NCBI RefSeq assembly: GCF_028728065.1
Contig: NZ_CP117812.1
Location: forward strand, 248,001-312,000
Length of the DNA: 64,000 nt
Direction of reading: 5' to 3'
From: Lentisphaera profundi
GTDB lineage: Bacteria > Verrucomicrobiota > Lentisphaeria > Lentisphaerales > Lentisphaeraceae
The notes under the pieces were generated by a model. The model ran no database searches and was not told where the DNA came from. It saw only the letters and a list, made by a program, of their open reading frames with translations. The position numbers and the translations under genes are program-made. Shown here piece by piece: positions 3,054-9,829 of the stretch. The stretch's first letter is position 1. Every line of letters starts with the position of its first letter.

Positions 3054-3206
3054 TGCTTCGCACACGAGGGAGCGCTACCCCTCGAGCTCCCTAGCAATGG
3101 GTGGGAACGCAAGAGCTTGTAAGATGATATTGGGTTCTGCCCAAGATATAAATGCCTCCGGCGGCCGAGGAGCCCTCGGGGCCATACTGAAAAATGTAGA
3201 AATAAG
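3054..3206. repeat. Dispersed palindromic intergenic repeat (copy A)
   Basis: Noncoding mosaic of small inverted repeats between creB and the EpsI-like gene. It holds GTGCTTCGCAC, a GAGGGAGC/GCTCCCT stem, TTGGGTTCTGCCCAA, and CCGAGGAGCCCTCGG preceded by TATAAATGCCTCCGG. The 3147-3206 part closely matches 10135-10183 and 10195-10265. The 3054-3095 part matches 8628-8665. Overlapping small open frames here have no gene-like features. Confidence 0.7.
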
Positions 3207-3253: not shown

Positions 3254-3760
3254 TCACCTTAGGGAAATCGTGTGAATTTTGGTAATAGATAACCATGGTC
3301 CCGTACTTTGTTTGAATAAGGCTTTCCAGTACCAAGATGAGGCATCGCTAATGAATTTATTATCTTTATCAATAATGATTTCTGAGACGAGGTAATTTTT
3401 ATGTTTCCAATCAGCCTCAAATTGAGACCAGAGCTGGCCTTTCGAATCTTTATAAAGGGGAAGGTAGTTGATTTTTGCACCATTGGATTGTAGGCAGACA
3501 GAAGCGGAATGCAATTTGCGACTCGGGCGGGTGACATAACGCAAAATATACTCATCTTCACCATCATGAAAACGACCTACTTTGCCAGGGAAATAGCGGA
3601 GAAATACTTTTTCCTGTTCACCCATGGGAAGTGGATAAAGGCTTTTGCCTTCAAGTGAACTTGGCCAAGGGATATCTACTTCAGGAGAGATTTCTTTGGA
3701 AGACGGTAAGAAACTCATAAGGGCAATTAAAATGGCGAGACTAGCATAGAGTTTTTGCAT
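3254..3760 (-). CDS. EpsI-like exosortase-associated protein (DUF3485-like)
   Basis: A 168-residue protein starting at ATG 3760, chosen because a GGAG Shine-Dalgarno lies just upstream; the open frame extends further back but only inside the exosortase gene. It has one N-terminal hydrophobic helix (residues about 3-17) and a periplasmic domain. The segment KLHSASVCLQSNG resembles the conserved His/Cys motif of EpsI/DUF3485 proteins, which accompany exosortases as a separate gene or a C-terminal fusion. The start overlaps the exosortase 3' end by 20 bases, so the two are co-translated. It is likely an accessory of the same sorting system. Its biochemical role is unknown even in the family. Confidence 0.65.
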   Translation of the reverse strand: MQKLYASLAILIALMSFLPSSKEISPEVDIPWPSSLEGKSLYPLPMGEQEKVFLRYFPGKVGRFHDGEDEYILRYVTRPSRKLHSASVCLQSNGAKINYLPLYKDSKGQLWSQFEADWKHKNYLVSEIIIDKDNKFISDASSWYWKALFKQSTGPWLSITKIHTISLR

Positions 3761-4520
3761 GAGAGCTCCTTTTTTGGATGAAGAGAATCGCAAAGATATA
3801 AAGGGTAAAAATGAAGAGTCCGACAGCACTATGAGAAAATTCGGGGAGTTCTAAAGGAGTGTTCTCCAAATAAAACAAAGCCGTATTACGGATAATATTG
3901 GAAGCAATAATCAAGCAGAAACCGAGGCCAAAGAATTTGAAAAATGCTTTTGCTTTCATTTTTTCATGGATGGCGATGATCGCAATCAAGAGCAAGCCAG
4001 CCCAGAGCATATTGATGCCGCTACAAGGAGCATCGACAATGGTCTGACGCCCTTGCCATTCTAAGACAGTGCCATGTGCTTGGACATGGATACCCCCGAT
4101 TTTGAGCAAAATGGCAGATGCTTGAGTGGAGAATAAACGCAGGGGATAACCAAGGAAAAACTGAATACTCGAGATGATGGGTAAAGACAAGAGCAAGAGT
4201 GCAAAGGATGGCCAAAGCCATTTACGCTCAAAAGCTTTAGAGCAGAGGAGGTTGAGGTTGAGGGCAAAGATAAAAGCGAGGGCAATCTCAGGGATATTCA
4301 AGAAAAGTCCTATGAGGGTCAAAAATGATAATCCAGAGCTAAGTATGAGTGCCTGTTTATCGATTCTCGTATTCTTCCAATCCTGCCTGTAAAGAAAGAA
4401 AGCAAGGATAAATAAAGCAACAAGGCAATGACTATCACTAGCAATAAAGCGGTGCCCCAGCCAAACGAGACTGGTCCAGTTAGCGAGTAAACAGCAAACT
4501 ATGGCGAGAGAAAATTTCAT
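3741..4520 (-). CDS. Exosortase (XrtN-like transpeptidase)
   Basis: A 259-residue polytopic inner-membrane protein with about eight hydrophobic helices. The exosortase/archaeosortase triad is visible: Cys166 in VDAPCSGINMLW, Arg211 in SNIIRNTALF and His230 in EFSHSAVGLF. These enzymes are thought to cleave a C-terminal PEP-like sorting signal and transfer the protein to a surface acceptor. The gene directly follows the VIT/vWA protein, whose C-terminus is such a signal, and precedes an EpsI-like gene. The pairing with one VIT-domain target recalls the XrtN subgroup. I am confident it is an exosortase and less sure of the subgroup. Confidence 0.85.
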   Translation of the reverse strand: MKFSLAIVCCLLANWTSLVWLGHRFIASDSHCLVALFILAFFLYRQDWKNTRIDKQALILSSGLSFLTLIGLFLNIPEIALAFIFALNLNLLCSKAFERKWLWPSFALLLLSLPIISSIQFFLGYPLRLFSTQASAILLKIGGIHVQAHGTVLEWQGRQTIVDAPCSGINMLWAGLLLIAIIAIHEKMKAKAFFKFFGLGFCLIIASNIIRNTALFYLENTPLELPEFSHSAVGLFIFTLYIFAILFIQKRSSHAKTLC

Positions 4521-7133
4521 TTATTTATTAGCCAGAAGCTTATGTTTTTCTTTGCTTAAGTAATAAATCAAAAAGAGGGATAAGATAATGATCAGTGCCC
4601 AAGTTTCTGGCTCTGGAACAGTGGGGACCGAGGAAGGATCGACGGCTTCAAGGCCGGCAGCGTCATACTGAGCCTGAGTCTCGAGCACAACGGCACCTGA
4701 GAGTGGTGTGACAAGTTGGTATTTAGCGGCAGTTTGAGCCACAACATCCAAGTTTTTGGCGTCGGAAAAATAAGCACTATACACTTCGTCGGAAATCATT
4801 AAGCGTGCGAGATGTGAGGAGGCTTGATGATCAGTTTTAGTGAATGAGTCGGCGTCGATAAAAGTACGTTTAAATTGCGGCCATTCGCTGGGGTTTAGCA
4901 TCAGTTCAAATAAATCAATAAGTTCAGCGCGATTGCTCGCGGCTAAATTTGAGTAATGCGGAGATTTTTTAATTTCTTGTAAAATCTTGTTGGCTCCCGA
5001 ATTAAATTGGAAATTGAGAATGGGAACTAGACCACGACGTTTTTGATATTGATTGAGTTTATTACTGCTACTTAAAAGATAGGGTTGTGGACCATGGATC
5101 CAAATGATGGAATGTTCATGTGTAGCGAGTTCAATGATTTGATCCAGGGCGTAGAGATTATCACGACCACCCTCAAAATCATAATCTTCGTAATCACTGA
5201 GGGCCTGAACCTTAGTGAGTTCGGTTCCGGCAATGAAAACTTCAAAATTCTTGTGATCAATGAGTTTTTTTATAGTGGGAGCTAAAGCCTCTTTTTCTTT
5301 GGCCATACTATGAGAACCATCAATTAGAACGAGGAACTTTTCACGACTGAAGGGTGAACCATAGCTGAGTTTTGAGCTAATGAGGCGGCTCTCGTCATGA
5401 TGATCTAGACCCCAAAACTCATTGATGTCCCGCCTGGGGAGTTCGATACGGAAATGATGAGCCATTTGTTCCTGACTTAAAGTTCCTCGTAAGGAATAGC
5501 TGTTTTTCGCTGACTTTTCGAGTTTTAATTCGGGGAGGTGAGCACTAGTCATGTTTTGCTTGGACTCCAACCAAACTTGGTGGTCCAAATTCGGTGCAAG
5601 ATGAAAGTTTGAAGCTAGGATTTGTGGAGGATAAAAATAGGCATGTTTTTTGTCTTGACTCAAGGGCATGGGGCTGGTGATGCCGATGCGAATTTTCATG
5701 CGTTTTTGAGCAAGTACAGGGAAGCATTGGACAAAGATGCGATTTTTAGCACTCCAGGTCACGAGTACGGGATCACGTCTTTGGCGGACAATTTTTTGAT
5801 AAGCACTTTTGACTTTAGAACTTTTTGCGAAAGCCGCTTCGCGTTCTTCGCCATTGACCCAGAGCGTGAGGCGACTGATAACAGCCTGATCGGGAAGGAT
5901 GATTTCCATACGAGCTTCACGACTTTGTCGTTCATGTAAATTTTCGAATTCCATAATCCATTCGCTATAAGCAATTGCGGGATCCGCATCGAGTTTACTA
6001 TCAAACTGTGAGCTAATGAGAAAAAGTTGTTCTTGTTTGGTGCCAATTTCCTGGTCGCCGACATCGGGGTCCCAGTTGAAGCGACTGCGACCAAGCAGGC
6101 CAGAACCATTCTTACGTTCAATCTTTTTGGGGCTTTTCCCTGTGACTTGAAAGTAAAGCTGATTGAGGAGCTTATCTGAAACAGAATTATTGACGGGTAA
6201 ATCACCAACTGCGGCAGTGCCAGAACCAAAGCCACGCTGAGCTTTTTTGAGAATATGTTCAGTTGAACCAAGATTGCGAATGAGCGAAGCGGCGGCGGAT
6301 TTCTCTTGATGGCTTGTTGCCTTCGCATATTTATGAATACCGTACTCAGTAATGGCAGTTGGGATTTTGCTGAGCAGTAAGAAAGCAAAGAGTAAGCCAA
6401 GAGCCTTGAAGAAATGCAGGAGCTTAGAAGCTTTAATTTCGTGCATGCGGTAATAGTGTTTTCGTAAATTATAGACCCCTGCAAAGCCAAATAAGGGAGC
6501 GAGGCTGAGCAGACCCATGCCCATGAAAATAATGGCCAGTGCACTCAGAGGAGAGAGTGGAACAAAGTAGAGGCAGTAATAAAAAGAAGCTGCCAAGGCC
6601 GCATTTTGCAGATAAATCATTTTTGGATTAAAGACTTTGTTTTGCTTCAAATGCCAATAGCTAATAAAATTAGATAGAGGAGGAAGCGAGCAAAGAATAA
6701 TATGGGGAAAGTCGGGTAAGGGATCAAAAAAACTATCAGCAAAAGGATGGTAGAGTAATTCAATGATTATTGCTGCGGCGGGCAGGACCATGGTGAAAAA
6801 TAAGTAGAAAAAACTCTCCCAAGGACCAAAATCACCTGGAGTGGCTGCGATCAGTTTTGAGTTTTTGCCCACAGGGAGCTTTGATTTTTTGGATTTTGAA
6901 TATTTCATCACCCCCGATTTGAGATCCAATGAAAGCGCTTTGGGCTGAGATATTTTAGTAAGTATAGACTCGAGTTTTTGTAGGTCGATTTCTTTGTCCC
7001 CATCCTCGAATAAAGATTCAATGATTTGACGCAGTTCTTCTTTGCGTTGATCATTTCTGCAGAGTTCATGATTTTTAATAAAATCATTGAGGCCTTGCTT
7101 CGCCTCTGCGGTAAAATTAAATGATGTATTCAT
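4521..7133 (-). CDS. VIT and vWA domain membrane protein with exosortase sorting tail
   Basis: An 870-residue protein with a cytoplasmic N-terminus (1-100) and several membrane helices between about 105 and 270. A VIT-like domain spans about 395-500 (EARMEIILPDQAVISRL). A von Willebrand A domain begins near 600 with the MIDAS motif DGSHS at 605-609. The tail has P-E-P-E-T-W at about 840-845, one hydrophobic helix and a basic end (KEKHKLLANK), which is the three-part exosortase signal. Its start overlaps the creD stop by four bases, and the exosortase gene begins one base after its own stop. It is probably the dedicated substrate of that exosortase. Metal-dependent adhesion or envelope sensing is an inference from the vWA domain. 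Confidence 0.8.
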   Translation of the reverse strand: MNTSFNFTAEAKQGLNDFIKNHELCRNDQRKEELRQIIESLFEDGDKEIDLQKLESILTKISQPKALSLDLKSGVMKYSKSKKSKLPVGKNSKLIAATPGDFGPWESFFYLFFTMVLPAAAIIIELLYHPFADSFFDPLPDFPHIILCSLPPLSNFISYWHLKQNKVFNPKMIYLQNAALAASFYYCLYFVPLSPLSALAIIFMGMGLLSLAPLFGFAGVYNLRKHYYRMHEIKASKLLHFFKALGLLFAFLLLSKIPTAITEYGIHKYAKATSHQEKSAAASLIRNLGSTEHILKKAQRGFGSGTAAVGDLPVNNSVSDKLLNQLYFQVTGKSPKKIERKNGSGLLGRSRFNWDPDVGDQEIGTKQEQLFLISSQFDSKLDADPAIAYSEWIMEFENLHERQSREARMEIILPDQAVISRLTLWVNGEEREAAFAKSSKVKSAYQKIVRQRRDPVLVTWSAKNRIFVQCFPVLAQKRMKIRIGITSPMPLSQDKKHAYFYPPQILASNFHLAPNLDHQVWLESKQNMTSAHLPELKLEKSAKNSYSLRGTLSQEQMAHHFRIELPRRDINEFWGLDHHDESRLISSKLSYGSPFSREKFLVLIDGSHSMAKEKEALAPTIKKLIDHKNFEVFIAGTELTKVQALSDYEDYDFEGGRDNLYALDQIIELATHEHSIIWIHGPQPYLLSSSNKLNQYQKRRGLVPILNFQFNSGANKILQEIKKSPHYSNLAASNRAELIDLFELMLNPSEWPQFKRTFIDADSFTKTDHQASSHLARLMISDEVYSAYFSDAKNLDVVAQTAAKYQLVTPLSGAVVLETQAQYDAAGLEAVDPSSVPTVPEPETWALIIILSLFLIYYLSKEKHKLLANK

Positions 7134-8443
7134 GCCTTAATCTCCTTGGTGTTATATCGACTTAAATCCCTTGTGAAATACATTACGGTAGCCAGAGTGA
7201 TGATTAATCCAAGGCTACCCATGAGCAGGGCATAATCCTCTAATTGTATGGTCCCATAAAGGTAGCCATAGAGTCCTCCGGTGGTGAAGCCAATGCTTAA
7301 TGAGTTTTTCCAGTTGGCGAGCAAGCTACGGGAATAGAGTGCCATCATAATTGAGCAAATGACCGATGCGATTAAATAGGCAAGGGCAAAGCTTAGGTGT
7401 TCGGAAATGGAAAGTAAGAGGACATAAAACATTAGGGAAGCAAAACCAAAGAGGATGTATTGCAGAGGATGAATGATTTGTCCGCTGAGGCGTTCGCAAA
7501 TGAAGATCGCAGCAAAAGTAAAACAGAGAAAGAGTAGGGTGTATTTTACGAGGCGGTGAACTTGGCTATAGCTCCCATTAAATTGAATGAGGCGCACACT
7601 GCAAGTTTCTTGTTCCAGTGCGTGCTCGCGATCACGCCATGAGCTTATAAAATCGCGTTGGAGATCATGAATTTCCCAATGGGAATCAAAGCCTGTATCA
7701 GATATATTATAGCTAGTCGGTAAATACTTCCCTTCAAAGCCGGGATGGGGCCAAGTGGATTGGACTTGAATGATGCTTTGGCGACCACTCGGAACGAAGC
7801 TTAGTTCTTGACTACCATTAATTTGAAGCTGGGTCGATAGAGTGATTTGTTGTTCATTGGCATCTAAATTTAAAGGGAAATGAAAGCCTGTTTTTAATCC
7901 ATTATCAATAGGGATTCCTGGACGAGCGTTAATGTTTTGCTCACAATGCTTCAAGTTGATTTGACGGCTCAAACCCTTGAGGTCACTAATGCCAAAGCTG
8001 AGTATAGCTTGATCCCAGAGTAGTTTTTCCTTTCCGTAAAGTTGCGTGATGGAGGTGAAATTAAAAGCGAGTTGATAATCGAGATCGCTTTTGTAGACGA
8101 TGGTTTTGAAAATGGATTTCTTTCGTTCTTCAGGATGGATTTGACCCAAAATATCGAGCTTCTCAGGATGAAGGTGAATGAAAGTCTCTTTATCTGAAGC
8201 GAGGGGGATAGAGAGTATGGCCCCATAAATATTTTGTGGTCCACCCCATTTATGTTGAATTTCTTTGAGGACTTCTGCACTACGATTTTCTCGTTCATGA
8301 ATGAGATCTAAAATCAAAGATTTTGGAATGTAGAGTAGAGCAATGATAATGGCGATCATTGCAATTTTGGCCATGAGTGAATTTTTTAGTTGCTTTAGAA
8401 AGTCGCGCTGCTTAAAGTTTAGGGGGGATTCATCACTCATCAT
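7130..8443 (-). CDS. creD: CreD-family inner-membrane protein
   Basis: A 437-residue protein with one N-terminal helix (about 24-42), a large periplasmic domain, and a C-terminal bundle of about six helices from residue 300. Diagnostic CreD sequence is present: GPQNIYGAILSIPL near residue 70, WPHPGFEGKYLPTSYN in the periplasmic domain, and LLLSISEHLSFALAYLIAS in the bundle. In enterobacteria and Aeromonas the gene is the main target of CreBC and responds to envelope stress. Here it leads an operon with the exosortase genes and carries a cre-type box 47-62 bases upstream of its ATG. Confidence 0.88.
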   Translation of the reverse strand: MMSDESPLNFKQRDFLKQLKNSLMAKIAMIAIIIALLYIPKSLILDLIHERENRSAEVLKEIQHKWGGPQNIYGAILSIPLASDKETFIHLHPEKLDILGQIHPEERKKSIFKTIVYKSDLDYQLAFNFTSITQLYGKEKLLWDQAILSFGISDLKGLSRQINLKHCEQNINARPGIPIDNGLKTGFHFPLNLDANEQQITLSTQLQINGSQELSFVPSGRQSIIQVQSTWPHPGFEGKYLPTSYNISDTGFDSHWEIHDLQRDFISSWRDREHALEQETCSVRLIQFNGSYSQVHRLVKYTLLFLCFTFAAIFICERLSGQIIHPLQYILFGFASLMFYVLLLSISEHLSFALAYLIASVICSIMMALYSRSLLANWKNSLSIGFTTGGLYGYLYGTIQLEDYALLMGSLGLIITLATVMYFTRDLSRYNTKEIKA

Positions 8444-8489
8444 TTTTTCCTCAGATTTATTAAAGTTAAATCTACTAAAAGTGACTTAT

Positions 8490-8505
8490 GTGAAAATGAC
8501 GTGAA
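8490..8505 (-). promoter_or_regulatory. CreB-type operator (cre tag) upstream of creD
   Basis: On the minus strand the sequence reads TTCACGTCATTTTCAC, an exact match to the published CreB consensus TTCAC-N6-TTCAC. A further TTCAC occurs a little upstream, at 8520-8524. The site lies 47 bases before the creD ATG at 8443, a suitable place for activation. It links the exosortase operon to the creBC-like pair about 5.5 kb downstream. Confidence 0.7.
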
Positions 8506-8627
8506 TCGCTGATGAACTTTGTGAATTCTCGAGTAAAAGGCCTGTTTAGTTCGCGAAAATTTAAGATTCGTTTAAGTTAGGAGTCATTGAGGATTTCTAT
8601 CCGCTAGGATAGAGAGCATGATGCTTC

Positions 8628-8718
8628 GCATAAGAGAGGGAGCTTTCCCCCTCGAGCACCCTCAGCAAGATACTGCCGTATAGGCGAATGCTTTTTATCC
8701 GTCTGTCTGGCAAGACCC
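8628..8718. repeat. Dispersed palindromic intergenic repeat (copy B)
   Basis: The creD-ychJ spacer (8444-8774) contains, besides the cre box, the same small-hairpin units as copy A. These are ATGCTTCGCAT, a GAGGGAGC stem, then at 8692-8718 a 27-base unit around CTGTCTGGCAA that reappears inverted at 10057-10083 with about 24 of 27 bases matching. No open reading frame with a ribosome site is present. Confidence 0.65.
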
Positions 8719-9289: not shown

Positions 9290-9829
9290 CTATTTATCGT
9301 CTTCTAAACGCTCTTCTTTTTTGGCTTCACGTCTTGCTTGGCGTTCTTCTTTAGTGAGGTGGTCATGCTTGTCTTTTTTACTCTTAACTCCGATCACATC
9401 ACCAGCAGCGACCTCAGCTTTAGCTTCATGATCGTGAACAGCTTTGGCATTATTTTTTTCGAGGTGCGCACCCTTTTCATGATCGTGACCGGTCTTTTTG
9501 TTGTGATGTGCTAAGCCATGGCCTTTATCGTGTTCATGACCCGTTTTCTCTGCGTGCTTGGTCGTGTTATCACTCGATTTTTCTGTCGTCGTTTTCTCTT
9601 TCGTACTTTTTTCTTTTGTTGATTTCTCTTTCGTACTTTTTTCTTTTGTTGATTTCTCTTTCGTACTTTTTTCTTTTGTCGATTTTTGTTTGTTTCCAGA
9701 AGATTTAGCCGTTTTAGTGCTTTTTGAACTGCTTTTACCACCACTACTTTTTTTGCTACCGCCCTTTTTACCTGCCGTGATATTAAATGTAAGTCCGAAA
9801 ATCATGAGTAAGATTAGAAATTTTTTCAT
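9290..9829 (-). CDS. Secreted Lys/His-rich low-complexity protein with STKEK repeats
   Basis: A 179-residue product with a signal peptide (about 1-19, MKKFLILLMIFGLTFNITA) and a GGAG ribosome site. The mature chain is almost entirely low complexity: Lys/Ser-rich, then six STKEK pentapeptides, then a His-rich stretch with repeated H-D-H, H-E-H and GHDHEK words. It ends in a charged tail of KKEERLEDDK type. His-rich exported proteins often bind metal ions and Lys-rich ones bind polyanions; both are inferences here. The repeat is encoded by a 30-base DNA unit and so may vary in length between strains. No homologous family is recognised. Confidence 0.7.
   Translation of the reverse strand: MKKFLILLMIFGLTFNITAGKKGGSKKSSGGKSSSKSTKTAKSSGNKQKSTKEKSTKEKSTKEKSTKEKSTKEKSTKEKTTTEKSSDNTTKHAEKTGHEHDKGHGLAHHNKKTGHDHEKGAHLEKNNAKAVHDHEAKAEVAAGDVIGVKSKKDKHDHLTKEERQARREAKKEERLEDDK
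9601..9690 (-). repeat. Three 30-bp tandem repeats coding for STKEK units
   Basis: Units at 9601-9630, 9631-9660 and 9661-9690 differ only at the end of the third. Each codes for two STKEK pentapeptides in the overlapping secreted protein. Because 30 is a multiple of three, gain or loss of units keeps the frame. Confidence 0.9.

Follow-up and report, generated by a model that had tools for sequence, protein, structure and literature searches.

A probable CreBC-controlled operon joining creD to an exosortase and its candidate VIT/vWA substrate in Lentisphaera profundi

Why should genes for an exosortase, a VIT/vWA protein and an EpsI-like protein lie between creD and creB-creC in the genome of Lentisphaera profundi? 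The locus (Table 1) was found in a 64-kb stretch of DNA, referred to below as the window, and we consider it probable that a dedicated exosortase and a single VIT/vWA substrate share with creD an operon that is controlled by CreBC. The case is built from sequence, namely the order of the genes, an array of CreB boxes before creD and the recurrence of this array in distant CreC-bearing members of the phylum, where it precedes exosortase-VIT operons. The component parts are of known kinds and it is the tie between the exosortase-VIT pair and CreBC that appears to be new; a search of the open-access literature, outside which most subscription papers lie, returned no paper joining exosortase or VIT proteins with CreBC.

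Table 1. Features of the creD-VIT-exosortase locus of L. profundi (positions are those of the window)
Feature	Position	Strand	Evidence
creD, inner membrane protein, 437 aa	7130-8443	minus	PF06123 416 bits (Pfam cut-off 23); NF008712 415 bits (cut-off 275)
VIT/vWA protein, 870 aa	4521-7133	minus	PF08487 37.3 bits (cut-off 26.5); TIGR04477 163.9 bits, below cut-off 250; alignment of 27 proteins; hydropathy; hhalign to sister subfamily
C-terminal sorting-like tail VPEPETWALIIILSLFLIYYLSKEKHK of the VIT protein	4536-4622, limits approximate	minus	alignment and tail profile
Exosortase, 259 aa, Cys166/Arg211/His230	3741-4520	minus	PF09721 92.6 bits (cut-off 25.7); residues checked
EpsI-like protein, about 168 aa from ATG 3760	3254-3760, ORF open to 3829	minus	XrtT C-terminal part, 30.2 bits, E 1.7e-7
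creB, response regulator	2280-2963	minus	NF008296 277.6 bits (cut-off 273)
creC, sensor histidine kinase	829-2283	minus	NF008312 433.9 bits (cut-off 356)
CreB-box array TTCAC-N4-TTCAT-N6-TTCAC-N6-TTCAC, before creD	8490-8525	minus	tag match, kept in 3/3 Lentisphaera genomes

The first-pass annotation had described creD, the VIT/vWA gene, the exosortase gene and the EpsI-like gene as overlapping or abutting in one direction and followed by creB and creC, and had reported both the Cys166, Arg211 and His230 residues of the exosortase and a PEP-type tail on the VIT/vWA protein; all of this is borne out. The creD and VIT genes overlap by 4 bp, the VIT and exosortase genes abut, and the likely start of the EpsI-like gene, an ATG behind AGGAG, falls within the exosortase gene; creB follows the EpsI-like gene after about 290 bp. 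Because the same order, from creD through to creC, is conserved in all three Lentisphaera genomes compared, the arrangement is not due to chance. Among named relatives of the VIT protein the closest, at 67% identity, is from Lentisphaera marina. Scans for promoters and terminators gave signals no higher than the shuffled level. Two genes upstream of creD, a short protein that looks exported carries a run of KSTKE repeats (9290-9829, minus strand), and a GC-rich repeat-like element bearing GGAGCTCGAGGGG is found between genes at 8600-8700 and 3090-3180 and also in relatives (L036, L037); the form of this element that was searched for has one copy only in the window.

Both regulators score above their NCBIfam cut-offs, and the creB product is 44% identical to CreB of E. 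coli, with a similar recognition-helix region. Excerpts of two published studies place the cre/blr tag in Cre-regulon promoters (PMC3660660) and describe the tag upstream of creD as critical for binding of active CreB/BlrA (PMC4689548); the creD upstream region of E. coli MG1655 carries it. In L. profundi a perfect tag, TTCACnnnnnnTTCAC, is located at 8490-8505, 47 bp before the creD start, and it is conserved upstream of creD in all three Lentisphaera genomes. The two-box tag by itself was rejected as evidence, being too frequent, with 25 copies in the L. profundi genome against 12 for a reversed control. Of the three-box form TTCAY-N6-TTCAY-N6-TTCAY, in which the boxes repeat every 11 bp, there is one per genome in each of the three Lentisphaera genomes, always upstream of creD, with 1, 0 and 0 matches for the reversed control, and when the three arrays are aligned the core box positions are identical at 12/12 and the spacer positions at 2/12. 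Among 70 further creD genomes the three-box form gives 61 matches, overlapping ones counted apart, against 6 for the control, and is present in 27; for 28 genomes chosen for VIT or exosortase genes the corresponding numbers are 44, 2 and 15 (one genome, G189, belongs to both sets). The creD-VIT-exosortase unit is very probably under CreB control, as had been claimed from the initial reading, and the same array before exosortase-VIT operons elsewhere points the same way. The proposed role in envelope stress is carried over by analogy from proteobacterial work on CreBC and CreD. According to excerpts of a study on Stenotrophomonas, deletion of creD harmed envelope integrity, and CreBC acted to lower creD expression, not to raise it (PMC4689548), so that the sign of control may differ in Lentisphaera.

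In order to follow the exosortase across the phylum we have searched 387 genomes using as probe the enzyme of G088 (L135), picked since it adjoins creD with arrays. Eighteen genomes, L. profundi included, have an exosortase of this type, and in every one of them a PEP-tailed VIT protein is encoded directly upstream, either of the type found in the window (6 genomes; window-type below) or of a sister type similar to TIGR03788, a sortase target (12 genomes). Near the operon start the array score is 15 of 15 in 13 genomes, 14 in G131 and 13 in G210, where the array is degraded, and 9-10 in G189, G279 and G084, as compared with random stretches of the same loci that score mostly 8-11, with 24/1080 at 12 or above, some of these necessarily overlapping the arrays. 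CreC exceeds its NCBIfam cut-off in exactly the 15 genomes that have the array; the remaining three (G189, G084, G279) have the exosortase-VIT pair with neither CreC nor array. The set was drawn with a probe from an array-bearing locus and its related genomes are not independent, with the 15 spanning 10 genera. Nine of these 15 (G080, G143, G214, G217, G237, G240, G277, G131 and G210) are not among the 73 genomes matched in a CreD search of 387 genomes, apparently the same draw, and the exosortase-VIT pair can therefore be a target without creD.

Several other layouts were found. G088 has arrays at two places, before the VIT-exosortase pair and before creD, and in G214 the order is array, creB, creC, VIT gene and exosortase gene. 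In G050 and G227 (L200, L251) a VIT/vWA gene comes after creD, and next, in place of an exosortase gene, one for a sortase-like enzyme; the G050 enzyme exceeds the general sortase cut-off (48.7 of 39.35 bits) and its VIT protein reaches 549.4 of 551.65 on TIGR03788. An array in G059 (L195) is followed by an uncharacterised gene, a CreD-like gene and genes for an XrtK-like enzyme (42.2 of 55) and an MSEP-CTERM protein (441 of 150), and there are further arrays a short distance upstream of XrtK-like/MSEP genes in G143 (L293) and of an MSEP gene in G162 (L273). The genome G086, from the sister genus, has a gene for a DUF817 membrane protein (PF05675, 219 bits) that runs into creD (L124, 4821-6979), with neither VIT nor exosortase gene, and a perfect two-box tag at 4888, near the start of the DUF817 gene. 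Three-box arrays are further observed in G075 and G274 (L184, L189) upstream of very small proteins ending in GETDDAPGAAxLGLLLM and basic residues, ends that look like another C-terminal sorting signal.

The window-type VIT loci outside Lentisphaera are different in this respect. None of 24 has a three-box array in the stretch examined, and a two-box site occurs within 400 bp at 3 of the 24, twice inside a PadR-like reading frame. A PadR-like gene lies directly upstream at no fewer than 10 of the 24, that is, at least at L005, L039-L041, L044, L046, L050 and L053-L055, and may represent an older mode of control of window-type VIT genes. Where window-type VIT genomes outside Lentisphaera have creD, it is located elsewhere. 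Since the Cre link is seldom found at window-type loci outside Lentisphaera, a window-type VIT gene seems to have been recruited into the Cre regulon in Lentisphaera, and by sequence the usual partner of Cre looks like the sister-type VIT protein. The exosortase tree does not decide how many times such joining occurred, nor does it settle the placement of the Lentisphaera enzyme with those of other window-type loci (support 87/92 with G189, on a long branch).

The VIT protein itself has about 100 aa at its N-terminus ahead of several membrane helices (hydropathy places several hydrophobic segments within residues 105-263), followed by the VIT domain, a divergent vWA domain (DGSHS), the motif LVTPLSGAVVLET and the PEP-type tail. 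Alignment with 26 relatives shows a DGSxS motif, a near-invariant LVTxxSGAVVLET motif and the tail. The vWA domain of the L. profundi protein has no Pfam match, in contrast to the sister-subfamily members whose vWA domain Pfam does find, and profiles of the two groups (27 window-type and 12 sister proteins) align over VIT, vWA and tail with an hhalign probability of 98.2% (E 5e-14). The usual vWA metal site includes a later threonine and aspartate in addition to the DxSxS motif; as read from the hhalign alignment DxSxS is retained and the later Thr/Asp are replaced by GGxDN and WIHGPQP-like stretches, so that the metal-site residues of window-type VIT proteins look altered. A HAAS-type domain (PF22564), known as a PadR partner, would tie the N-terminus to the PadR-like genes found upstream of other window-type VIT genes; of five N-termini of VIT proteins one matches it, under cut-off (E 0.03), and that of L. 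profundi does not. An AlphaFold model of the protein was unusable (mean pLDDT 39.9). Because of the several hydrophobic N-terminal helices the protein would start as an inner-membrane protein, and the surface anchoring described earlier is putative.

The tail has a PEP motif, a hydrophobic stretch and a basic end, and PEP is invariant in the 15 tails that we have aligned. Established tail models recognize it poorly: NCBIfam tail models give matches of E 0.05 only, and Pfam PEP-CTERM (PF07589) has no match at E<=1 in the whole genome, the tail of the VIT protein included, and was therefore discarded as a test of the number of targets. A profile was instead built from the 15 tails, that of the L. 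profundi VIT protein among them, and searched against the L. profundi genome (5.46 Mb, 2 contigs). The VIT tail is the only significant match (E 6.5e-16); the other five have E values from 0.126 to 5.18, with a 293-aa protein at 1.55.

This 293-aa protein lies beside a second exosortase, and the genome has three in all. One is XrtZ (623 bits, cut-off 475; L064, 8930-11196, own genome C1), next to an Npun_F0296-type protein with a PGAP-CTERM tail. Another is XrtD-like with an EpsI-like end (L063, 9140-14370, own genome C2); its neighbours are a TPR protein and the 293-aa protein, whose PEP-type tail is APEPEFYLLIIIAGFILYKKLQQEK, also given as APEPEFYLLIIIAGFILYKK, and glycosyltransferase-like genes are nearby in a cluster read by eye. 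The third is the enzyme of the creD-VIT operon. Taken together, the three exosortases and the tail-profile matches lead to the assignment of one adjacent likely substrate to each enzyme. The many PEP-CTERM substrates that would have contradicted the first-pass annotation did not appear, and its proposal of a single VIT target agrees with the genome, the one closely related tail being encoded next to a different exosortase. It is possible that the two PEP-type tails are cross-processed.

The window exosortase belongs to the superfamily by both its PF09721 score and its catalytic triad, and is not readily placed within a named family. Its best NCBIfam model is Exosortase Q (XrtQ, NF012182), at 141.8 bits, as it is for its relatives (141-167 bits), but all fall well under the cut-off of 270 and an XrtQ identity was rejected; in the relatives, moreover, an EpsI-like domain or gene is present, with a match to XrtT. 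The EpsI-like assignment in L. profundi rests on the weak match to the C-terminal part of XrtT and on the homologous C-terminal domain of fused relatives. XrtN with its single VIT target (TIGR04476/TIGR04477) is similar in that one exosortase serves one VIT protein, and the L. profundi VIT protein is most like TIGR04477. Both proteins, however, score below the cut-offs (71.1 of 200 and 163.9 of 250 bits) and the L. profundi exosortase has a separate EpsI-like gene, so that the XrtN-type system suggested at the outset has been dropped.

The dedicated sortase system of proteobacteria (TIGR03784-TIGR03788) combines a two-component system with a VIT/vWA target and an enzyme of its own for C-terminal processing of that target. 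The resemblance extends to the sister VIT subfamily, which scores 409-421 bits on TIGR03788, and to G050 and G227 with their sortase-like enzyme after creD-VIT. The L. profundi operon differs in having an exosortase and PEP tails in place of a sortase and CreBC as regulator; it contains no sortase, and with the histidine kinase at 136.7 of 612 bits (TIGR03785) and the response regulator at 144.4 of 336 bits (TIGR03787) membership was rejected. The XrtK/MSEP-CTERM system (TIGR04287/TIGR04286) likewise pairs a VIT-domain target with an exosortase and has a CreB-type array upstream in G059, G143 and G162; the families are separate, however, and occur in 28 of 387 genomes, with no array at 14 of the 15 short loci examined. 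CreBCD and BlrAB-CreD of gammaproteobacteria share creB, creC, creD and the TTCACnnnnnnTTCAC tag before creD, as excerpts of their descriptions give it (PMC3660660, PMC4689548), and the Lentisphaera operon differs by its additional VIT, exosortase and EpsI-like genes and by arrays of at least three boxes.

Could the exosortase and VIT genes simply ride in the creD operon, co-transcribed by position and with no part in the Cre response? The Lentisphaera array does precede creD and not the VIT gene directly, and in other genomes the window-type VIT proteins are mostly encoded away from creD. Ten genomes with the other VIT subfamily, however, have a perfect array before the exosortase-VIT operon (in G214, before creB-creC-VIT-exosortase), mostly with no creD in the locus, and we regard such a passenger role as unlikely. 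That the boxes are bound by another regulator of the OmpR/PhoB type and not by CreB seems to us very improbable. Regulators of this type do bind 11-bp direct repeats, and every genome of the 18 has several related kinases and regulators, but the boxes match the published cre/blr tag, as excerpted (PMC3660660, PMC4689548), as well as the creD upstream region of E. coli MG1655, they precede creD in many genomes, they track CreC in the 18-genome set (15/15 with CreC vs 0/3 without) and the recognition-helix region of CreB is conserved.

Two further doubts concern the enzyme and its substrate. Were the exosortase a general PEP-CTERM enzyme, with further substrates shared, for example, with an exopolysaccharide cluster, the 293-aa protein with the second PEP-type tail, beside the XrtD-like exosortase and the glycosyltransferase cluster, would be a candidate. 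Against this the 15-tail profile yields one significant match with the other five at E 0.126 or worse, and Pfam PEP-CTERM finds nothing at E<=1, though it misses the VIT tail as well; we hold a general role to be quite unlikely. It is also improbable that the VIT tail is only a membrane anchor that is never cut. The N-terminal membrane helices are already present and a freed C-terminus would not be needed for membrane attachment; on the other hand, PEP is invariant in the aligned tails, and in all 18 loci the VIT gene adjoins that of an exosortase whose catalytic triad is complete.

On the preferred reading of a dedicated, CreBC-controlled pair, active CreB would bind the array and turn the operon on. 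The VIT protein would insert by means of its N-terminal helices and hold its VIT and vWA domains outside the inner membrane, and the exosortase, using Cys166, Arg211 and His230 and probably assisted by the EpsI-like protein, would cut it before the C-terminal helix and may hand the new end to a putative acceptor. The processed protein would in this way connect the inner membrane with an outer part of the envelope.

A broader reading, to which we give even chances, is that VIT/vWA proteins paired with a C-terminal processing enzyme constitute a standing class of CreBC effectors in Verrucomicrobiota-Lentisphaerota, in which one enzyme can be exchanged for another (XrtQ/T-like exosortase, XrtK or sortase-like) and the pair can replace creD. 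That creD-VIT is accompanied in one case by an exosortase and in the other by a sortase-like enzyme suggests that selection keeps the processed VIT protein and not the processing chemistry. Two old gaps would be joined here, the purpose of dedicated exosortase-VIT pairs and the targets of CreBC beyond creD. The conserved CreB array before the pairs suggests a condition under which cleavage might be sought and gives both systems a testable job: if this reading is true, CreBC would rebuild a cross-envelope link besides protecting the membrane through CreD.
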